The position numbers and the translations under genes are program-made. Of a stretch of DNA of 27,034 nt, positions 3,254-14,863 are shown piece by piece. The notes below the pieces were generated by a model, which was not told the DNA's origin, made no database searches, and saw only the letters and a program-made list of their open reading frames with translations. This DNA comes from a virus. The stretch lies in IMG/VR virus record IMGVR_UViG_3300012228_000014, positions 1 through 27,034 of that record. The stretch is one strand, 5' to 3'. Each line of letters opens with the position of its first letter. Within the stretch, counting starts at the first letter, position 1.

Positions 3254-5007
3254 TACGCCACCGCTGCCGCGTTACCGACGACCCGGCTTAGGGCCGTATC
3301 GCCTTCCATTGGCGTATTTCCCGCGGACTGCACCGCCGCGGCCGTGTCCTTCATGACTTGCGCTTGCGCGAGCTGATTCTGTTGTTCGCGGATCTCCGCG
3401 GCGCGGGCTTCGGCGTCTTCGTTCGAGCGAATGATCTTCGGGTTCGTGCCGAGCATTTCGCCGTAGTCATCGATCGCGACGCCTACGTCGATCTTATGCA
3501 CCGCATCAGGGAACACGGACGCGAGCCCCATCGCCGAAGTCATCAGGCGATCGAGCCCCACCACGCCGACGAGCTTTTGCGCTTGCGCGAGAATCGAAAT
3601 GTATTCGACCTTGAGATCCACGCCGTCGAGCTGTTCGGGCGGAGTCGGGATCAACCCGGCCAGGTCCATCATTTCGTAGATGCGATCGACGATCGGATCG
3701 AGAAGTTCGTCGTTCGTGCGTTCGAGGACCGGGCCGAGCGCGATCAGCTTTTCTTCGTGACGCTCCTCGACCTCGCGAGCCGTCACGGGTTGCGCGCCGC
3801 GCATGTCGTCGGAGCGCGCGAGCATCAGGAACAGATCCTCGTAGAAGCTCCGCTGGATCCGGTATTGCACCTGCCCGATATCCGCCGACAAGTGATCGAT
3901 CCGCAAGTTGACGTCGTGAATCGACTTCAACCCCTGCTGCCCTTCGCGCACGTCAACGTAAGTGATATCAGCCGGGAGAAGCGAAGTCTTTTGCGTGCGA
4001 AGGCTCGTCGGGCCCGTCAACGGCGGATCGACCATCTTCGCGATCGCTTGCCCCTTGCGACGCTGCATGATCTGAAGCTGCTTCACGTCGCCGAGCGCGG
4101 TCATTCCAGGGCAATCGGTCCCGTAGCTATCGCCGTCCGTCACGTCCCACCGCGGGCACATGACCGGGAACGATCGGAACCCGCTCTCGCGAAGGAACGT
4201 CTTCGCGGGCTCGTTAGCGCCCGGCTCATAGTGGAAGCTCGAAAACGGGAGATACTTCGCTTCGAGCTTGTTCGGGTTGCGCTGCTCGTTCGGCTCGACG
4301 AGCCAGCCCACCGGGATCGACGTTTGATACTCGCCGCGGTCCCACAGGCCCTTCACGATCGACGAGATTCGCGACCAATCCACGTCCCGCCCGCCATCGA
4401 TCGATCCGAACTCCTCGACGATCTGTCGAACGGTCAGCTCGTATTCACGAACGAACGTCGTCACAAGCCCGCGCTTGTTGAGCCCCAGAGCGAACGACCC
4501 GAGCGCGTAGGGATAGCACCGAAACAGGTCCTTCGAGTCCGGCAGGATACCGACGCCCGCGGTCCCGAACACGCCCAGATCGCCATAGACAACCGGGAAA
4601 GCGTTGTAAAGGTTCGTTTGCGCGAAGACCGTCAACATGCGCTGGGTTACTTCGTGAAGCCATTCCTTCACCGGCCCGAACTTCGCCAGGTCTGGATCGG
4701 GAGTCGTGAGCTTCATCCACGGCCGCGCGGGCGAGGTAAGCCCGGCATGCAAGCCGCTCGCGAGGGTGCGCGCCGAGAAGCGCGCCGTCGAGTCGATGAT
4801 CTTTTGGTTGCGCTTGTCGCCGCGCTCTTTATCGCCGGTCCAGAACCGCGTCCGGCGCGGGATAATGTATTCGGCCAGCTCGCCCCAATGCGTATCGAAC
4901 CCGCTCTTTCGGATATCGATCAACGACGCGCCGAGCTGCTCGACGCGCTCACGCTTCGACTTCTCGCTTCGCGTGCCGTCCGACTTGCGATCGTAGAAGC
5001 CCGCCAT
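3253..5007 (-). CDS. Portal / head-to-tail connecting protein, podovirus type
   Basis: At 584 residues this is the usual length for the T7-like head-tail connector family. Recognisable segments are IIPRRTRF near residue 50, ASGLHAGLTSPARPWMKL near 90-105, ALGDVKQLQIMQRRKGQAIAK near 305-325 and the following DPPLTGPTSL. The C-terminal part (DGVDLKVEYISILAQAQKL and later Gln/Ala-rich helices) matches the helical crown region. The protein forms the dodecameric ring at one capsid vertex through which DNA enters and to which the tail attaches. The start shares a base with the preceding TAA. The family points to a short-tailed phage. Confidence 0.95.
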   Translation of the reverse strand: MAGFYDRKSDGTRSEKSKRERVEQLGASLIDIRKSGFDTHWGELAEYIIPRRTRFWTGDKERGDKRNQKIIDSTARFSARTLASGLHAGLTSPARPWMKLTTPDPDLAKFGPVKEWLHEVTQRMLTVFAQTNLYNAFPVVYGDLGVFGTAGVGILPDSKDLFRCYPYALGSFALGLNKRGLVTTFVREYELTVRQIVEEFGSIDGGRDVDWSRISSIVKGLWDRGEYQTSIPVGWLVEPNEQRNPNKLEAKYLPFSSFHYEPGANEPAKTFLRESGFRSFPVMCPRWDVTDGDSYGTDCPGMTALGDVKQLQIMQRRKGQAIAKMVDPPLTGPTSLRTQKTSLLPADITYVDVREGQQGLKSIHDVNLRIDHLSADIGQVQYRIQRSFYEDLFLMLARSDDMRGAQPVTAREVEERHEEKLIALGPVLERTNDELLDPIVDRIYEMMDLAGLIPTPPEQLDGVDLKVEYISILAQAQKLVGVVGLDRLMTSAMGLASVFPDAVHKIDVGVAIDDYGEMLGTNPKIIRSNEDAEARAAEIREQQNQLAQAQVMKDTAAAVQSAGNTPMEGDTALSRVVGNAAAVA

Positions 5008-5321
5008 TAGGACCCGAGCAACGAAGCCCGCGCGTAACGCGGTTTGACCGGCTGCGTCGAGGAGACGGGCGTCTGCGGATTCGACAACAGGGAGCCCGCC
5101 GCCGCGCGCTTGCGGACCTTCACGGCCGCGGCTCCGGCTGCGGCCTGCTGCTGCCCCGGATCGGCGATCGGCGGCGCGGGCGGTTTGATTGTGTCGACGG
5201 TCGTATCGGTCGGCCCCGGCGCGAGCTGCTTCGCGTTGGGTGCTTTGTTCGCGTTGCGGTTTTGCAGATAGGACATCAGCATCGATCCGCCCATGAGCGC
5301 CAACGACGTAAATCCGGCCAT
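5007..5321 (-). CDS. Small head-module protein with hydrophobic N-terminus
   Basis: The protein has 104 residues. It has a short hydrophobic start (MAGFTSLALMGGSMLMSYL), a Pro/Gln/Ala-rich middle and a basic C-terminus containing KVRKRAAAGSLLSNPQ. Small proteins with an N-terminal helix and a KxRKRA...S-L-containing tail are common immediately upstream of portal genes in podovirus-type modules; no function is established. The gene follows the acetyltransferase by 5 bases and joins the portal through TAATG. AAGGA lies 12 bases from the ATG, a longer spacing than normal. Confidence 0.7.
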   Translation of the reverse strand: MAGFTSLALMGGSMLMSYLQNRNANKAPNAKQLAPGPTDTTVDTIKPPAPPIADPGQQQAAAGAAAVKVRKRAAAGSLLSNPQTPVSSTQPVKPRYARASLLGS

Positions 5322-5326
5322 GAGGG

Positions 5327-5803
5327 TTACAGTCCTTTGATGTATGCCGTTTCGACGGCCTGATATCCGCTGTGTTCGTAGAAAGTCCCCACGGTCGAAC
5401 CCGCGGGCGCGACCATTTTTACCATATTTGCACCGTTTCTAGTAGCCCACTCTTCGGCATGCCGCAACATCTTGGGTCCGATCGACCCGCCGCGGGCTCT
5501 CGGCTCGACCCACCACGCGACCTCTTCGGCGATTATTTGGCTGCTTAACTGATGGGGAACGACGATCATTGCGAGCATGCCGATCACGCCCTCGTCGACG
5601 CCTTGCACCCACCGCGGATCGCCCGCGCCGTGCTCGGCCAGGAAGATCGCGCCGAGCTGCATCACAAGCGCGATCATGCTGTCGATCGCGTCCGGCGTGG
5701 CCGCGCGCCTGAAGATCGTTCCGTAAAGCGACTCAGCAAGGAAGCGCGTCGTCATCGCTCGAATTCTCGGGCCGTCCTCGAGAATCGCTTCGCGGATGAT
5801 CAA
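5327..5803 (-). CDS. GNAT-family N-acetyltransferase, TTG start
   Basis: This 158-residue protein has the GNAT fold: an opening strand and helix (LIIREAILEDGPRIRAM), a central strand region (GVIGMLAMIVV), the acetyl-CoA pyrophosphate loop RARGGSIGPKML with its following helix, and a late FYEHSGYQAVE motif. It would transfer an acetyl group from acetyl-CoA to an amine; the substrate is unknown. I chose TTG at 5803 because GGGAG lies 5 bases upstream, it overlaps the previous TGA, and the first GNAT strand is only complete from there. The next ATG would remove that strand. It is embedded between terminase and portal, so it is expressed with head genes. Confidence 0.85.
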   Translation of the reverse strand: MIIREAILEDGPRIRAMTTRFLAESLYGTIFRRAATPDAIDSMIALVMQLGAIFLAEHGAGDPRWVQGVDEGVIGMLAMIVVPHQLSSQIIAEEVAWWVEPRARGGSIGPKMLRHAEEWATRNGANMVKMVAPAGSTVGTFYEHSGYQAVETAYIKGL

Positions 5804-6060
5804 TTCATCTCCCGGCGCCGTTGCATGCGCGCGGCCTCGCGTTTGGCTTCGGTGGATATCGCCGCGGAGATTGCGCTCACGTCTTCGACCGGCCACCAGA
5901 CCGGGACGCTCGTCCGTTTGGAATCGCACTCGAAGCAACGCCGGGACTTCGCCCAGGGTCGAGCAACGCTCTTAATCAACAGCTCGACGTGCCCGCATTC
6001 GTGGCAAGTGATCTGCCCGGCAATGTAGCGATCTGCATCGCCGGGCCGATCGCGCGTCAT
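5800..6060 (-). CDS. Small zinc-ribbon protein
   Basis: The protein has 86 residues. Two CxxC knuckles (CHEC at 19-22 and CFEC at 42-45) frame a basic segment, a typical treble-clef or zinc-ribbon arrangement. A C-terminal helix rich in Arg/Glu follows. The start ATG at 6060 overlaps the previous TGA (ATGA), and the gene's stop overlaps the TTG of the acetyltransferase. It could bind nucleic acid or protein in the packaging module; the family is not recognised. A longer reading of this frame upstream is a shadow of the neighbouring gene. Confidence 0.72.
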   Translation of the reverse strand: MTRDRPGDADRYIAGQITCHECGHVELLIKSVARPWAKSRRCFECDSKRTSVPVWWPVEDVSAISAAISTEAKREAARMQRRREMN

Positions 6061-6431
6061 CGCTTCTTCGCTTTCTTCCCGGCGACGTTCGAGCCCGCGA
6101 GCCGCGCGGGCGCCAGGTTCTCGCCGTCCTGATTCGCCGCCGCGTGATACCCGTCCTCGAACGCGCGCTGGCTTTCCGTGTTGAACGGGAAACGATCGGG
6201 CGGCGCGTCGCCGCTGCTGCTTTGAACATGTTGGACGCGCGCCTCGAACCCGCCGACGAACGCGGTTCGCAGATTCGCATCGTTCGCGTAAGGCGCGTCC
6301 GGCACCTTCCACGTAATGACCTTGCCGAGCTTGTCGAACTGAAGCGTTCGACCCTTCTCCGGCGACGCCTTCGCCGCGCGCGAGCTGGTGCCTTCCGTTT
6401 TCAGGGGCGCCGCTTTCTTCTTCGCCATCAT
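6057..6431 (-). CDS. Unknown small basic protein downstream of large terminase
   Basis: The protein has 124 residues. It has Lys-rich termini (MMAKKKAAPLK and the end AGKKAKKR) and a middle with FDKLGKVITWKVPDAPYANDANLRTAFVGGFEAR and a later FNTESQRAFEDGYHAA. The middle looks like a compact helical fold ending in a disordered basic tail. ATG at 6431 overlaps the terminase stop (ATGA); a second ATG at 6428 is equally possible. A role alongside terminase or DNA is plausible from charge and position but not shown. Confidence 0.6.
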   Translation of the reverse strand: MMAKKKAAPLKTEGTSSRAAKASPEKGRTLQFDKLGKVITWKVPDAPYANDANLRTAFVGGFEARVQHVQSSSGDAPPDRFPFNTESQRAFEDGYHAAANQDGENLAPARLAGSNVAGKKAKKR

Positions 6432-7936
6432 CGGTTCCAATCTGAGGGATCGAAATCACTCTCCACCGTGCCCGCGCCCTCGAACGGGTCGGCGTTGTGT
6501 AACGCGCCGCGATTGCGTCGCGCTCGTCTAAGAATGTCCTTCGGCATATCCGCGATCGCGAAGGTTTGGAACAGGGCGTCGCCCAGGTCCGGCGACCGGC
6601 CGAGTCTCGCCTTGATCATTTCCTTCGGCTCGATCACGAATTTACCGTTCACGAACGAGTATGTCGGCGTGATCAGCTCGCCGATCATTTCGGGAATATA
6701 CGGCAATTCGGCGCCTGACTTCACCCATTCGGCGCCGAGCATCCAGAATTCCGCGCGCCGGTTCCTGAAGCGCGGATCGATCGCCGGGTCCGAATAGACC
6801 ACCGGGATCGGCCCGTGCCCGGACGCGACGAGGTTGTCAATGACGCCGTGCCCCCAATGCCCGGTATCGTCCACGAACGTCAAGACCTCGTCGCCCTGCC
6901 CGTAGTCCGCGATCGCCTTCGCCGCGCGAGCCGCGATCGCTGTCGTGCGCGCATTGCGAAGGACCAACGGCCGGAAGGCCGCGAGCCCTTGCCGCGGGAA
7001 GATCACGGTTCGATCGTCGCCGAACCGCGCCACGTCGATCCCGAGCCGCTTCTGCGCCCACTCGTAAGCCGACAACGGAAGGCGCCGCTTCATCGCCGCT
7101 TCGACCTCTTCGGCGCCGAGCAACGCATTGATCGAGCTGGGCGGGAACTCGCCGAGAACGTTCACCATGACCCACGGGTTCTCGCGGCCGTAGTTTGCGA
7201 TCTGCTCCTTCGCCCACTTCAACGGGGTAAGACCGTCCTTGCTCATCTTCGCGGCGCGGCCGTGATGAACCCACGCCTTCGGGTTGTCGGGATCGCCCGT
7301 GATCGTGATCACCTTCCACAAGTGCCGCTGGGTCGTGCAGGCCGTGTATAGCGGGCCTTCGAGCTTCGTCGGGTTGCCCGCTTGAACGATATGGCCTTCG
7401 ACGCAGCTCGCGAGGACCGCTTCAACGGTTGCCATGACGCCCATCGGGATATCGCCCGACTCGTCGAGCACGCCCATAACGTAGTCTTCGTGCAGACCGG
7501 CGAGCGCGTTCGCCTGAGCCGCGGGGTCTGCCGACTTCGGCCAGGTGCGCGCTTGGCACCACCACGTCGCCGAATACGCTTTATGGACTACTTGGGTCTT
7601 CGTCCAAGTGAACGTCGCCGATAGGAATTGCGATCGGCTCATCCACTTCGCCAGCTCCGGCCACAGGTTCGACGCCAGGTTGTCGCCCGTGATCGACGTG
7701 GCGCCGATCCTCGGATGCGGGCGCGTCGCGAGGAAGTTCAGAATGATCCACGCGAGAACGGTTGTCTTACCCGGCCCCTTGCACGCCTTCATCGCGAGCC
7801 GCGGGGATCGAGGGTAGAGGCTCAGGGCTTCATGCTGCCAGGGGTCCGGCTCCGCTTGAAACTCCTCGCGCACGAACGCGACCGGGTCTTCGCGCCAACG
7901 GCGAAGGGTCGCGTTCGCGTAATCGTGATCGGTCAC
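6428..7936 (-). CDS. terL: Terminase large subunit (DNA packaging ATPase and nuclease)
   Basis: This 502-residue motor protein pumps DNA into the head and cuts concatemers. The ATPase domain has a Walker A-like loop CKGPGKTT at 52-59 and Walker B MGVLDES with D158 and E159. The nuclease domain shows an RNase-H-like set: GIDVARFGDD (D301), VDDTGHWGHGV (D356/D357) and SPDLGDALFQ (D453). Length and motif spacing are normal for the family. The start is GTG at 7936, overlapping the TGA of the upstream gene, with only a weak ribosome site. The small subunit is not adjacent but lies at 10471-10995. Confidence 0.95.
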   Translation of the reverse strand: MTDHDYANATLRRWREDPVAFVREEFQAEPDPWQHEALSLYPRSPRLAMKACKGPGKTTVLAWIILNFLATRPHPRIGATSITGDNLASNLWPELAKWMSRSQFLSATFTWTKTQVVHKAYSATWWCQARTWPKSADPAAQANALAGLHEDYVMGVLDESGDIPMGVMATVEAVLASCVEGHIVQAGNPTKLEGPLYTACTTQRHLWKVITITGDPDNPKAWVHHGRAAKMSKDGLTPLKWAKEQIANYGRENPWVMVNVLGEFPPSSINALLGAEEVEAAMKRRLPLSAYEWAQKRLGIDVARFGDDRTVIFPRQGLAAFRPLVLRNARTTAIAARAAKAIADYGQGDEVLTFVDDTGHWGHGVIDNLVASGHGPIPVVYSDPAIDPRFRNRRAEFWMLGAEWVKSGAELPYIPEMIGELITPTYSFVNGKFVIEPKEMIKARLGRSPDLGDALFQTFAIADMPKDILRRARRNRGALHNADPFEGAGTVESDFDPSDWNR

Positions 7937-8127
7937 TTCCGATCGGCCTTCTTGATCCAGAACTTCGACGCGACCGATTCGACGCGCTCGACACGGTGCA
8001 ACAGCTTCGAGCCGTTTACTTCGATGAAGTGTGTATTCGGCGAATTGTCGCGCGGGACCGTTCCCTGCACTTCATAGATCCGCGTCCCGCCGCGGAACCG
8101 AACCCAATCGCCGATCTCGACCTTCAC
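7933..8127 (-). CDS. Small beta-barrel-like protein of unknown function
   Basis: The protein has 64 residues and a GTG start at 8127 overlapping the TGA of the membrane-protein gene. The sequence KVEIGDWVRFRGGTRIYEVQGTV followed by LLHRVERVESVA alternates like a small KOW/SH3-type barrel, which would suit nucleic-acid or protein binding. It sits directly before the large terminase. The family is not recognised, and an ATG far upstream (8184) would overlap the membrane gene fully, so it is rejected. Confidence 0.6.
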   Translation of the reverse strand: MKVEIGDWVRFRGGTRIYEVQGTVPRDNSPNTHFIEVNGSKLLHRVERVESVASKFWIKKADRK

Positions 8128-8255
8128 AGCTTGCCCCAGGTGCCCCAGAAGACAATGAGCGCCAAGATCAGCACCGCGGGCCATAGCGGCATCTTGTCGA
8201 ACGCGCTCGCCGCGATGATTGCCAGCACCACGATCAGAAGAATCGGTAACACCAT
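8124..8255 (-). CDS. Small two-helix membrane protein
   Basis: The protein has 43 residues. It is almost entirely two hydrophobic stretches (PILLIVVLAIIAASAF and PAVLILALIVFWGTW) separated by DKMPLW, so a helical hairpin in the inner membrane. AAGGGAGG lies about 7 bases before the ATG, and the ATG shares a base with the TAA of the preceding HTH frame (TAATG). It could be a holin-like or superinfection protein, but lysis-type genes cluster at the other end of the window. No function is assigned. Confidence 0.7.
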   Translation of the reverse strand: MVLPILLIVVLAIIAASAFDKMPLWPAVLILALIVFWGTWGKL

Positions 8256-8446
8256 TAGACCGCCTCCCTTTTCAGCTTCGAGCCGTCTTGCTCGCGAAAC
8301 AGCGTATCGACAAAGATTCGACGACTCCCGCCGACCGTGCGAAGCCACTCGACCTTCTTAGCTTACATCCAGTTGTAGATGGTGCGACGACTCACGCCCG
8401 CGATCTCGCACGCTTTTAGAATCGAGACGGTTTGTCGTTCGCCCAC
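8255..8446 (-). pseudogene. HTH (MerR/excisionase-type) DNA-binding gene interrupted by an in-frame TAA
   Basis: GTG at 8446 has AGGGGG upstream and opens 27 codons ending GVSRRTIYNWM, a classic helix-turn-helix recognition helix. Codon 28 is TAA (8365-8363). The same frame then continues AKKVEWLRTVGGSRRIFVDTLF, the normal wing and C-terminal part of this phage HTH family, and ends with a TAA that shares its last base with the next gene's ATG. All parts of a 63-codon gene are therefore present and only one codon is wrong. A CAA (Gln) at codon 28 would restore it. TAA is used as an ordinary stop elsewhere in this window, so recoding of TAA is unlikely. A nonsense mutation, readthrough or sequence error are the options. 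Confidence 0.75.
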
Positions 8447-8504: not shown

Positions 8505-8951
8505 CTACGATCCGGGTCGTATCAGGCGAAGCCCCGCTGGTGCAGTGCTCGGCGGAGCCAGCCGCGAAAAAGGGGCTCTATTGCTTTCAGGACCTCTGCC
8601 CGCCGCGTTGAATGCCTGCAGCCCGGCTTCGTAGGTTGACCCGAACGGCACGGCGAAGAGTGGGCCCGTCCCCGGATCGTTCCATTGACACACGCGCCCG
8701 GCGTTGTCGGGATCGTCCCATATCGCGCGCGAGGGATTCACCGGCAGGCCCGCGACCGGCGTCGGCGGAGCCAGGTTGCACGTAATCGCGCCGATCTGGA
8801 AATCAAAGAACGACAACGGCGTCGACGCGGGCGGAGTCATCGCCGGATAGATGTTCAAGCGATAGCCGTCGATTGCTTGCGCGAGCGCGTTCGACGGCGC
8901 GGCCAGGACGGCGAGAAGGATCAACGATCGAACGATGGTCTGTGTTTTCAT
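8505..8951 (-). CDS. Secreted protein with fibronectin-III-like C-terminal motif
   Basis: The protein has 148 residues. The N-terminus is a good signal peptide (MKTQTIVRSLILLAVLAA, cleavage after ALA near residue 23), so the product should leave the cytoplasm. The mature part has two Cys (TCNL and RVCQW) that could form one disulfide. The end has the YEAGLQAFNAAGRGPES pattern of the last strands of a fibronectin-III-like fold, then PPSTAPAGLRL. ATG at 8960 is an alternative start three codons upstream. No known enzyme motif is seen. It may act in the envelope or be displayed on the particle. Confidence 0.68.
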   Translation of the reverse strand: MKTQTIVRSLILLAVLAAPSNALAQAIDGYRLNIYPAMTPPASTPLSFFDFQIGAITCNLAPPTPVAGLPVNPSRAIWDDPDNAGRVCQWNDPGTGPLFAVPFGSTYEAGLQAFNAAGRGPESNRAPFSRLAPPSTAPAGLRLIRPGS

Positions 8952-8961
8952 GGCCTGCATT

Positions 8962-9351
8962 CTACCGGATGCGAAGGCCGGTCGGCGCAACGCTCGGCGG
9001 TTCGAGATCCATCGGCACGCGACGCCATAGCTCCGACGTATGCGGGTCGATCCCGATGTAGTGCTCTTGATTCGTGCCCCAGGTGCCCGGCGCCGGGAGC
9101 TTTCCCATTTCGGTTGTTGCGAAGTGATACTCGCCGAACGGCATCGACACGACGCGCTCGGCCACGTCGATCCGGCAATGCTCGCCGACCGTCTTCGGGT
9201 CCGGCCAGAAGACCGTCCGCGGGTTGACCAGGCGATCGACCAGCACGCCGACGACGAGCCCAGCCTGCCCGCATATCGGCGCGCGAACCTCCATCGGCGG
9301 AACGTAGCCGCCCCCACCCGTGAGGACGAACCAAAGCGCCACGTAATCCAT
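8962..9351 (-). CDS. Unknown protein sharing a C-terminal motif with its neighbour
   Basis: The protein has 129 residues. ATG at 9351 has GGAGGGG just upstream and forms a TAATG junction with the preceding stop. The first residues (MDYVALWFVLTGGGGYVPP) form a short weak signal-like segment. The end, EPPSVAPTGLRI, closely matches the APPSTAPAGLRL end of the next gene, so the pair probably shares a fold or came from one duplicated domain. Two Cys (PICGQ, EHCRI) may pair. Function is unknown. Confidence 0.6.
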   Translation of the reverse strand: MDYVALWFVLTGGGGYVPPMEVRAPICGQAGLVVGVLVDRLVNPRTVFWPDPKTVGEHCRIDVAERVVSMPFGEYHFATTEMGKLPAPGTWGTNQEHYIGIDPHTSELWRRVPMDLEPPSVAPTGLRIR

Positions 9352-10470: not shown

Positions 10471-10995
10471 TCACTCCTTCGGCCGAGACTTGTCGGCCAG
10501 GTATTTCACATGGTCGAACGCCAACGAGATATCGAGCTTCTTCTTTATGCGGCCGTGGCTCTCCGCGATCAGCTCCGCGGCCCGCATCTTGTCGTAAAAC
10601 ACGATCGACCCGTCCGCTTTGATGCCCTTCACCACGAGCGCCACGTCCTCGGGCCAGTCCTTCATCGGCAAGGGCAGGCCCGTTGTTTTGTCGAGCATCA
10701 GCCGGGGATCGATCCTCAAGACTCGCGAGATCACGGCCATTGCTTCTTCGGCCGTCGCCTCCGCGACCGCGAGGATCTTCTCCCCCCGCTCCTGAATGAA
10801 CGCCTTTACCTTTGCGGAGCTTAGCAAGCGGGACGCGCAGGCATCCGTGACCGAATCCTTACGCTTGCCCGGCATGGCCTCGTTGTAAGCCGCTCGCGCA
10901 TTGTTGCCGTTCCCCAGGTAGATCAAGGCAAAGAGCTTATGGTTCGGCCGCAATGGGCCCCGCCCTTCGCCTGATCGGTTCTTCTTCTTTGCCAT
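10471..10995 (-). CDS. terS: Terminase small subunit
   Basis: This 174-residue protein recognises phage DNA and regulates the large subunit. The pattern HKLFALIYLGNGNNARAAYNEA followed by ACASRLLSSAKVKAFIQERGEKIL is the Terminase_2 type: a helix-turn-helix, a spacer and a helical region. The middle has AMAVISRVLRIDPRLMLD and WPEDVALVVKGIKADGSIVFYDKM, the common C-terminal part of this family, followed by a helix ending AAELIAESHG. ATG at 10995 has no clear ribosome site, so translation may be coupled to the gene ending 10 bases earlier. The large subunit lies about 2.5 kb downstream, an unusual separation. Confidence 0.88.
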   Translation of the reverse strand: MAKKKNRSGEGRGPLRPNHKLFALIYLGNGNNARAAYNEAMPGKRKDSVTDACASRLLSSAKVKAFIQERGEKILAVAEATAEEAMAVISRVLRIDPRLMLDKTTGLPLPMKDWPEDVALVVKGIKADGSIVFYDKMRAAELIAESHGRIKKKLDISLAFDHVKYLADKSRPKE

Positions 10996-11520: not shown

Positions 11521-11741
11521 AGCTTCCTGTGCCTGCTCACTGGCTGAAGTAACCGGCGATCGCTCATTGACTTGATATCGCCGAGCATGATCCGCCGCTC
11601 GTTGCCGTCGCCGTCCTCGAAGATTAGGACTTTGCCCGCTGTCTTCTCTTTGAATTTCAATTCGACGACCTCGCCGGACTTCAAGCGCACACGGCACCAC
11701 CGGCCGCGAGCCGTCGCACTGTGCGGAGCCCCGCGCGCCAT
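11517..11741 (-). CDS. Unknown small protein, strand-rich
   Basis: The protein has 74 residues. It starts at ATG 11741 in a TAATG junction with the methyltransferase stop. The core RVRLKSGEVVELKFKEKTAGKVLIFEDGDGNERRIM looks like a five-strand barrel with charged loops. The C-terminus is basic. It is translationally coupled to the methyltransferase, so it may be an accessory to it, but this is position-based only. Confidence 0.6.
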   Translation of the reverse strand: MARGAPHSATARGRWCRVRLKSGEVVELKFKEKTAGKVLIFEDGDGNERRIMLGDIKSMSDRRLLQPVSRHRKL

Positions 11742-12478
11742 TAGAACCCGAACCCCGTTGCGATCGGTTCGCTGAGGAGCTTCGCCGCAAGCTCGCAACT
11801 CTTTTCGTCTGTGTCCATGCCGATCCCTCGACGGCCTGTCGCCCGCGCGATTCGCAACGTCGTTCCCGAGCCCAGGAACGGATCGACGACGAGCCCACCG
11901 ATCGGCGCGAACGGGACGAGCCACCGAAGCACCGGCTCGGGCTTCTCGGCAATGTGATCCTTCTCGCCGACCGGCGCGCACTTGATCACGTTCTGCGGAC
12001 TGTGATCGTTCTCGCGCGACCACGATCCGTTCGTCGCCCAGACGACATACTCGGCCGATTGCGAGAGCCCGCCGCGTTGCATCCTGATCCCCGGCTTCCA
12101 CCACGTTCCGATCCCGCGCCATACCCACCCGCCCGATTGAATCGCGTCGGTCATGGTCGGGAGCTGTCGCCAGTCCGTGAAGATAACGGCGTGCGCTTCC
12201 GGCTTCGCACGCGCGACCGCGAACGCGAGCCACAGACTCGACCAGGCGAAGAACGCCCGCTGGTCCCGGTTGTCGCCGGAGAATTCAGGCCGGACGGTTT
12301 GCGTCGAGCTGTTTACATACTTCTCGATCGTCGAGCGCATGCGATCGGATCGATACTGCCCGCCGCTCGAATAGGGCGGGTCCGTGATCAAGGCGTCGAA
12401 CGGCTCGACCTCCGGCAACAATTCGAGCGCGTCGCCGTGGTAGATCGTGATCCCGTCGCCCTCGAAGTAGGGCTTCAA
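11741..12478 (-). CDS. DNA methyltransferase, DPPY (beta-class, N6-A or N4-C)
   Basis: The protein has 245 residues. The catalytic motif DPPY is at 33-36 and the AdoMet-binding motif DPFLGSGTT near 199, with the target-recognition region between them, the beta-class order. AEKPEP precedes motif I, as is usual. The start is TTG at 12478 overlapping the preceding TGA; it gives the usual opening KPYFEGDGITIYHGDALELLP for phage enzymes of this type, whereas the longer frame adds shadow sequence. It would methylate adenine N6 or cytosine N4, probably to evade host restriction. No cognate restriction gene is seen. Confidence 0.9.
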   Translation of the reverse strand: MKPYFEGDGITIYHGDALELLPEVEPFDALITDPPYSSGGQYRSDRMRSTIEKYVNSSTQTVRPEFSGDNRDQRAFFAWSSLWLAFAVARAKPEAHAVIFTDWRQLPTMTDAIQSGGWVWRGIGTWWKPGIRMQRGGLSQSAEYVVWATNGSWSRENDHSPQNVIKCAPVGEKDHIAEKPEPVLRWLVPFAPIGGLVVDPFLGSGTTLRIARATGRRGIGMDTDEKSCELAAKLLSEPIATGFGF

Positions 12479-12759
12479 GTCTTCGCCTTCGCGCGCTCGA
12501 CCGCGGCGAGCACGATTCGGAAGAGTTTCTGGTATGTGCCGAAGCTGCGCCAATTCGCGTTATGGCCTTCGATCTGCATGATCAATGACGGCGAGAGCGT
12601 GGCTGTCAGCTCAGGGCGGCGCGTAGCCTGAAGAACCTTCCGAAGCACGATCAACGCGCCGCCCGCCTTCTTCGCGGTGTGCTCGCGACTCAGTTCGACC
12701 CACTCCTCGGCCGTGAATTGCACCGTCACGAATTCGAGATCAGAACGGGACGTCATCAT
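12475..12759 (-). CDS. Unknown small helical protein between two methyltransferases
   Basis: The protein has 94 residues. Tandem ATGs at 12759 and 12756 follow an AGGTG ribosome site, overlapping the end of the MT-A70 gene by about 20 bases. The protein has VQFTAEEWVELSREHTAKK, then KVLQATRRPELTATLSPSLIMQIEG, suggesting four or five helices. It ends with a TTGA overlap into the next methyltransferase, so the three genes are translated together. The family is not recognised. Confidence 0.6.
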   Translation of the reverse strand: MMTSRSDLEFVTVQFTAEEWVELSREHTAKKAGGALIVLRKVLQATRRPELTATLSPSLIMQIEGHNANWRSFGTYQKLFRIVLAAVERAKAKT

Positions 12760-13816
12760 CGGGCACCTCGATCGGCGGTTTGAATTCTTCGCGGGTCCAG
12801 AGCTTCGCGTCGTTGCCGAACACGTCCCACCCCTCGACGCGCTCGCGGCCGAATAGTTCGAGGTAGGGCCCGCGGGTCCAATGCGCCTCAATCCACTTCC
12901 GCGCGCTCGCGGGCTTCTCGCTGTGCTTTTGCGATCGCCGTTCGATGAATACGCTTTTTTCTTCCGGCGTCGCCACGTCCGGCAGGCACGATCCGCGCGT
13001 CGCAATGATCAAATGTTCGTGAACGATATGGGTCCCGTAATGCCCGTGCATCCCGAGCACCTTGTCCCATACCCGGCCGGTCTTCGGCGTGAAGCCCCAG
13101 GCTTCGATCACTTCGCGCGGGCCGGGGTTCTCGTAGAGCATCGGCGCCGTTACCCACATGAAGAGGATCGCGTTCGGCATCGTATGAGCTTGCACCGGGA
13201 GCCGACACAGCTCCTCGATCGTCATGCTCGGATAGTGGCGCGCGGCCTTGCCCAGCGAGCCGTCCTTCGTCGCGCCGCTGTCGCTGTATTTCCACGGCGG
13301 ATCGGCGTAGATGATCCGATACATGCCCTGCAGCTTCGCTTGGCCGTCAATGACTTTAACCCGCTCGGCCGCTTGAATTTCTTTCTTTAGGTCCTGTTCG
13401 CTCCACCCCTGATCGCGCGATCGTTCGAGCCAGGTCTTTTGATCTGCGGGCTCCATCGACGCGACGATCGCGTGCTTCGAGAATCCGACGCCCTCGATCC
13501 GTTCGTCGGCCGGGAGCATGTTCTTCCCGAGGTATTTGTATTGCTTCACGCTGCGCTCTGACAGAACGTCGGCGTCGATCAAGTGATCGATCTTGTCCTC
13601 CCAATCGGCGCGCGTGTAGGCGTAGGCGATCAGGTCCACGATCCAGAACCCCGAGCATTTGTGAACGCGCGTCACATAGTCGAAGGTCCCCTGAAATTGG
13701 GGCAACGACGGCCGGACGCCCGCGGGCACAATAACGCCCGTGCTCGTCATCTGGAACCCGTTCAGCTCGAACGTTTCGAGCTTGGCTCTCTTCGCGATCT
13801 CTGTCTTCTTTGCCAA
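12740..13816 (-). CDS. MT-A70-family adenine methyltransferase with ParB/HTH-like N-terminal domain
   Basis: The protein has 358 residues. The C-terminal half is an MT-A70 enzyme: IIYADPPW with the catalytic DPPW at 172-175, then YPSMTIEELCRLPV, FMWVTAPML and RRSQKHSEKPA, ending in YLELFGRE near residue 325. It methylates adenine N6. The N-terminal half (about 70-150) has SERSVKQYKYLGKNMLP and a WLERSRDQGWSEQDLKKEI segment like the ParB/Spo0J-type HTH, a likely DNA-targeting part. The start is TTG at 13816 with GAGGG about 6 bases upstream. A strong hairpin precedes the gene, so it may start a separate transcript. Confidence 0.9.
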   Translation of the reverse strand: MAKKTEIAKRAKLETFELNGFQMTSTGVIVPAGVRPSLPQFQGTFDYVTRVHKCSGFWIVDLIAYAYTRADWEDKIDHLIDADVLSERSVKQYKYLGKNMLPADERIEGVGFSKHAIVASMEPADQKTWLERSRDQGWSEQDLKKEIQAAERVKVIDGQAKLQGMYRIIYADPPWKYSDSGATKDGSLGKAARHYPSMTIEELCRLPVQAHTMPNAILFMWVTAPMLYENPGPREVIEAWGFTPKTGRVWDKVLGMHGHYGTHIVHEHLIIATRGSCLPDVATPEEKSVFIERRSQKHSEKPASARKWIEAHWTRGPYLELFGRERVEGWDVFGNDAKLWTREEFKPPIEVPDDDVPF

Positions 13817-13874: not shown

Positions 13875-14372
13875 TTACTCGTCGCCGTCGCCTTCAGTCA
13901 GAGCCTCGCCGATCTTGCCGGGGTCCTGCCCTTCGCCGGTTTCCGGCTTGCCCGCGTCGCCCTTCGGCGGATCGACCTGCCCGCCGTCCGCTGAGCCGTC
14001 GCGGTCACGTCGAACGACCAACTTCTCGTCGCCAGGCTCGATCGACAACGAGACGCCCGCGTTCTTGTAGTGCTTGACGCCGTGAACGCGCATCGCCTTG
14101 AGCGCGCCCGTCTCGATCGTCTTGCCCTCACCCTTGAGCTGATTCACGTCGTCGCGATTGTCGCCGATGTTCCGGCAGTAACGATCGAGATCCGTGTATC
14201 GAACGCCGGGCATCAGGTCGATCTGCTCCTCCGACTTACGGCGTGGCTTCGCGCTCGCCGTCTTCGCCGCGCGTTTCCAGGCCCGCGCCCCGTCGAACGC
14301 CGCGGACTTCTTCGCGGCCTTCTTCTTCGCCGTCTTCTTCGCCGCTTTCTTTGCGGCCTTGCGTTTCACCAT
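13875..14372 (-). CDS. Lys/Ala-rich protein with histone-tail-like N-terminus
   Basis: The protein has 165 residues. Residues 1-25 repeat AAKK/TAKK, like histone H1 tails and bacterial HU/AlgP-type extensions. Residues about 48-120 form a compact region (IDLMPGVRYTDLDRYCRNIGDN...GVKHYKNAGVSLSIEPGD), and the last 45 residues are acidic and disordered. A DNA-binding or DNA-condensing role is suggested by charge. ATG at 14372 has AAGGAG 6 bases upstream; the GTG at 14387 is less likely. It lies directly downstream of the resolvase gene and upstream of a strong hairpin. Confidence 0.68.
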   Translation of the reverse strand: MVKRKAAKKAAKKTAKKKAAKKSAAFDGARAWKRAAKTASAKPRRKSEEQIDLMPGVRYTDLDRYCRNIGDNRDDVNQLKGEGKTIETGALKAMRVHGVKHYKNAGVSLSIEPGDEKLVVRRDRDGSADGGQVDPPKGDAGKPETGEGQDPGKIGEALTEGDGDE

Positions 14373-14383
14373 TAGACGCTCCT

Positions 14384-14863
14384 TCACTGTGACCTCCGTT
14401 TACGACCGACCTCCGACAACAAACCTCGACGCGAGCGCCGACAATACTCCGCGATCAACAGAGCATCGGCGATCGCATGCGTGACCGTGAGCGCGGGGAA
14501 TAGCTGCTGCGCCCGCCGCTTTGTGATGTTCTTTTTTTCCGTATCGGTTGCGCCAGTCGCGTAGGCAATGCCGAGCGCGGCCTGCCACCGTCGAGGGATC
14601 ACCGCGTCGAAGGGGATTCGCGCCGCGGTGAGCGCGGTCCTCAGCGTGCCGACGTTCTGACCGAATGCAAAGCCGCCGCCCTGCCCAGGGACCGACCATA
14701 CATGCTCGATCACCGCGAAGGTTCCGCCCGACCAGAACCATTTCGCCAACAGGTCGATCGCGTCGCGCTCCGTCTTCGGCATCCGTTCCGTGAGCGCGTC
14801 GCCATTGTCGTTGATTAGGGCAAGGCCACCGCTCAGGCCCGGATCGATGCCGATATACCTCAT
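14384..14863 (-). CDS. RuvC-like Holliday junction resolvase
   Basis: This 159-residue protein has the RNase-H-fold motifs of RuvC: IGIDPGLSGG with D7, VIEHV with E53, and THAIADALLIAEY with H129 and D133. It would cut four-way or branched DNA during replication and recombination and resolve concatemers before packaging. It follows DnaB by 43 bases with a good promoter in the gap. GGAG lies 12 bases before the ATG, so the ribosome site is loose. It lacks the extra basic C-terminal part of cellular RuvC, as is common in phage versions. Confidence 0.9.
   Translation of the reverse strand: MRYIGIDPGLSGGLALINDNGDALTERMPKTERDAIDLLAKWFWSGGTFAVIEHVWSVPGQGGGFAFGQNVGTLRTALTAARIPFDAVIPRRWQAALGIAYATGATDTEKKNITKRRAQQLFPALTVTHAIADALLIAEYCRRSRRGLLSEVGRKRRSQ

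Follow-up and report, generated by a model that had tools for sequence, protein, structure and literature searches.

We conclude that a soil phage, probably infecting Acidobacteria, very probably carries a recently inactivated accessory regulator gene, i.e. a pseudogene, in which translation would end at a single in-frame TAA. The window, which is the whole stretch of DNA analyzed (27,034 nucleotides of the IMG/VR record IMGVR_UViG_3300012228_000014), holds the gene and its neighbors as listed in Table 1. Read directly, the regulator frame comprises 63 codons, translated as VGERQTVSILKACEIAGVSRRTIYNWM up to the TAA at codon 28, its sole interruption, and as AKKVEWLRTVGGSRRIFVDTLFREQDGSKLKREAV from there to the terminal stop. 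A purine-rich AGGGGG precedes the GTG start, and the terminal TAA overlaps the ATG of the next ORF (TAATG). The read-through frame matches HTH_17 (PF12728) at 27.7-28.9 bits, against a cut-off of 27, and is therefore not a chance open frame; the figure of 27.7 bits was obtained with X at the stop, and the match concerns the read-through frame, not the 27-residue product. Direct reading and the HTH_17 match thus bear out the layout given in the original prediction, i.e. a ribosome-binding site, GTG start, helix-turn-helix, wing, TAATG junction and a TAA at codon 28. In-frame ATG, GTG and TTG codons were searched for in the 3' part and none is present, leaving no standard start for separate translation of this half.

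Table 1. Positions in the window of the interrupted regulator gene, its parts and neighboring genes
Feature	Position	Strand	Remark
Terminase large subunit	6428..7936	(-)	Anchor for locating related phages
Next ORF, 43 aa, membrane-like	8124..8255	(-)	ATG overlaps the TAA that closes the regulator frame (TAATG); GGGAGG site of its own
Interrupted winged-HTH (HTH_17 / excisionase-like, MerR-like) regulator gene	8255..8446	(-)	GTG start to terminal TAA
3' part, 35 codons	8258..8362	(-)	Wing and tail
In-frame TAA, codon 28	8363..8365	(-)	Coincides with the final residue of the recognition helix predicted for the intact homologue
5' part, 27 codons	8366..8446	(-)	First helix and nearly the whole recognition helix
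Terminase small subunit (phrog_51)	10471..10995	(-)	Stretch from here to the large subunit varies among relatives

Comparison with homologues reveals that the stop is peculiar to this virus. Related phages were located via the terminase, and wider scans added phage and chromosomal relatives, giving 121 homologue matches in phages and Acidobacteria chromosomes, or about 113 distinct other loci after removal of duplicates; the read-through query had no match in the phage reference collection. A sister phage (L005), the terminase of which is 82% identical to that of the window, has an intact copy of the regulator at the equivalent position, immediately upstream of its terminase large-subunit gene, with 70% identity to the window copy over 53 residues (E about 1e-22). 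In the codon 28 column of the 121 matches a stop occurs only in a twin contig of the window, with the other matches having Ala (73), Ser (22), Arg (9), Asp (5), Thr (4), Lys (3) or a few singles; a pattern scan for further copies with a stop at this codon returned the twin contig alone. The proposal that the family normally reads continuously through this point is consequently upheld, there being a sense codon in all of the about 113 distinct loci, and the presence of a disabling stop in this virus alone is as expected of a pseudogene.

The stop itself might be taken to mean that the gene naturally ends after 27 residues, with the remainder being chance coding-like sequence. However, a check for homologues with a natural end after YNWM found none among the about 113 loci, and the 3' half, used as a separate piece, aligns to the family (E 6e-15, with a profile from the window gene and that of L005). 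In addition, the codons past the stop keep 17 of 25 residues relative to L005, where 8.1 would be expected with the same changes placed at random. We count a natural end as already refuted, and the chance of its being correct as close to nil.

The TAA is most likely genuine. A second IMG/VR contig, IMGVR_UViG_3300011429_000034, which is the twin referred to above, carries the same TAA and is 100% identical to the window over ~12 kb, making it unlikely that the TAA is a slip of a single assembly, although this contig, while a separate assembly record, may share source material with the window and is not fully independent. At the end of the twin contig, positions 127-479 are an inverted copy of window positions 12493-12845, which is probably an assembly hairpin. 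Further, in all the members of the nearest clade that were inspected (hosts L096, L097, L104, L105 and L141; phage L040) codon 28 is GCG or GCA, i.e. two or three changes from TAA, such that a one-base error is an unlikely source of the stop. Thus, although the window is a metagenome contig and the second contig, being identical throughout, could go back to one source with it, an error in sequencing or assembly is highly improbable as the explanation.

The same codons do not support the single C-to-T change from CAA by which the stop had been explained; CAA occurs in one very remote homologue only, whereas in the near ones the codon specifies Ala (GCG or GCA). To judge from the homologues, TAA would have been reached via one or more intermediate codons or by a change of several bases at once. 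In a remote phage homologue (L070:3001-3156) the corresponding stretch is YNWMYAKR and codon 28 is TAC, a single change away from TAA; the likeness to the window's YNWM-stop-AKK is probably a coincidence, the two proteins being only about 45% identical.

The region past the stop is clean, without a frameshift or a second stop, and amino-acid constraint has been kept there; dN/dS for the 3' half is about 0.13-0.25 relative to the host copies, with too few changes for relaxation to be seen. This constraint implies either that the stop arose late in the history of the gene or that full-length protein is still made. The former needs nothing special, whereas the latter would need readthrough of UAA without a conserved signal or structure. 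A clean and constrained region past the stop is, however, equally expected of a read-through gene, and to that extent counts against the pseudogene reading. On balance the break appears to be young, and the original prediction of a freshly broken regulator is supported by the sense codon in all other homologues, the intact syntenic copy in L005 and the constraint past the stop.

The original prediction had offered, as an alternative, a stop that is read through at some rate to give 27- and 63-residue products with regulatory meaning. The preserved and constrained frame past the stop is in keeping with this proposal, and in-frame stops in bacterial genes with dN/dS <1 have been taken as possible readthrough events (PMC7918605). 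However, the leaky stop named in that work is TGA, whereas codon 28 is UAA, and the same constraint would be expected after a recent nonsense mutation. The stop is in no homologue, hence there is no conserved readthrough signal, and the 27-residue product would be without the wing. The RNA fold 3' of the codon 28 TAA is not unusual (z -0.52), and an RNA structure stimulating readthrough was accordingly rejected. Given also that no suppressor tRNA was found in the stretches scanned, that TAA ends other genes at a conserved position and that there is no in-frame start past the stop, we consider the production of two such products very unlikely. It likewise seems highly improbable that UAA at codon 28 is read through usefully in infection, with small amounts of the full winged-HTH protein acting on an Acidobacteria host circuit.

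With respect to decoding of TAA more generally, four window genes (5007-5321, 5327-5938, 11741-12553 and 13875-14387) have TAA ends at, or at most 3 residues from, the ends of their homologues in L004 or L005, substantiating the earlier statement that TAA is a working stop elsewhere in this genome. No in-frame stops were found in 14 other window genes (4769 codons), and ARAGORN identified no tRNA genes in the window, in the stretches next to it or in related ones. A phage with a reassigned stop would have that stop in frame in many genes and not use it as a terminator, which is not the pattern found here. Decoding of TAA as an amino acid by the virus or by its host has nothing direct in its favor, beyond the window being a 27 kb fragment (a sister contig is about 46 kb), such that a tRNA could lie beyond the window. 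Because conserved genes here end with TAA, recoding was rejected; we regard it as already contradicted and give it almost no credence, the 14 genes without in-frame TAA and the result of the tRNA scan also standing against it. For the pseudogene reading, it counts on the other side that a suppressor tRNA could be present elsewhere in the phage, given the fragmentary record, or in the host. As a general caution, recoding does not follow from a lone TAA in a frame that is otherwise intact. By coordinate reading, the stops in the few other window alignments that have them fall either before the annotated starts or within shadow frames that overlap genes, and other broken genes in the window were rejected on these grounds.

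The genomic setting suggests why inactivation of the regulator could be tolerated. The set of small genes separating the terminase subunits is not the same in the window as in L005, and no copy of the regulator lies close to the terminase in at least 20 further related phages with sufficient sequence, pointing to an accessory gene, the loss of which would be tolerated. The early stop need not silence the next ORF, because this has its own ribosome site; a family search with this ORF gave no match. A further ORF within the variable region between the terminase genes (8505-8972, minus strand) begins in a manner resembling a signal peptide (MKTQTIVRSLILLAVLAAPSNALA) and matches nothing in Pfam.

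The chromosomal relatives of the regulator are almost all in Acidobacteria records and are about 66-84% identical to the sister-phage gene, which suggests that the phage probably infects Acidobacteria. Beside the regulator, the chromosomal loci have a divergent sigma-54-type response regulator in 76 of 80 cases and a sigma-70-type factor in 74 of 80. In the Acidobacteria loci L078-L157 (e.g. L105:1522-4814) the intact regulator lies between the two, as part of a conserved regulatory locus. In an even draw of 199 Acidobacteria genomes, a close copy (E below 1e-14) occurs in 16 and is free of internal stops in every case. Many other soil phage contigs (L040-L077) also carry copies of the Acidobacteria regulator. 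In a tree of about 50 residues, most nodes of which are weakly supported, the window copy clusters with one clade of hosts (support 0.936) and that of L005 with a different one; this placement suggests repeated capture, and the slot may have been filled twice, by separate events.

The broken gene is itself of little weight, as it adds a single clean nonsense mutation, of very recent date, to those in phage accessory genes. The more useful by-product is the intact family, i.e. the knowledge that soil phages carry a small DNA-binding protein whose gene in Acidobacteria adjoins those for a sigma factor and a response regulator of sigma-54 type. This points to the probable host and to a way in which phages might act on its transcription.

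AlphaFold2, run on the intact protein of L005 with an alignment of 37 sequences, gives a model (mean pLDDT 86) with helices at residues 9-16 and 20-28, the latter being the recognition helix, and wing strands at 34-36 and 42-45; the closest solved folds are Pukovnik Xis and BldC. When intact, the regulator is a small DNA-binding protein with a winged HTH of Xis/BldC-like shape, the recognition helix and wing of which would contact DNA. Because a product ending at residue 27 loses the wing, while keeping most of the helix, loss of DNA binding is to be expected, and the 27-residue product should be inactive.

Pukovnik Xis, from a mycobacteriophage (PDB 4j2n), is like the modeled protein a small single-domain winged HTH (Foldseek E 9e-4, TM 0.67, 39% identity). 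The intact relatives are members of the excisionase family TIGR01764 (35.9-41.5 bits against a cut-off of 28.8), whereas the window copy, at 23.3 bits, falls below the cut-off; by HTH_17, a host relative scores 32.8 bits. A functional excisionase acts together with a tyrosine integrase the gene of which is close by. The setting differs from that of excisionase systems in that no match to a tyrosine integrase (PF00589) was found in the 27 kb record, itself a fragment, and in that the chromosomal relatives adjoin a response regulator and a sigma factor, while the window copy is interrupted. BldC of Streptomyces (PDB 6ama/6amk), a 68-residue MerR-like winged HTH without another domain, holds DNA with both its recognition helix and its wing (PMC5859096); its fold is similar, and its Trp and wing region align with the regulator family. 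Nevertheless, the intact relatives (20-26 bits) and the window copy (22 bits) are below the cut-off of 77 for the BldC model NF033787 and are not filed as BldC. A further trait of the BldC family is that its members bind direct repeats in DNA in a head-to-tail arrangement. With respect to the interruption, the closest parallel is with nonsense-interrupted phage accessory genes, which likewise have a single in-frame stop in a gene that is otherwise intact and accessory; the present case differs from these in nothing except the very young state of the break.
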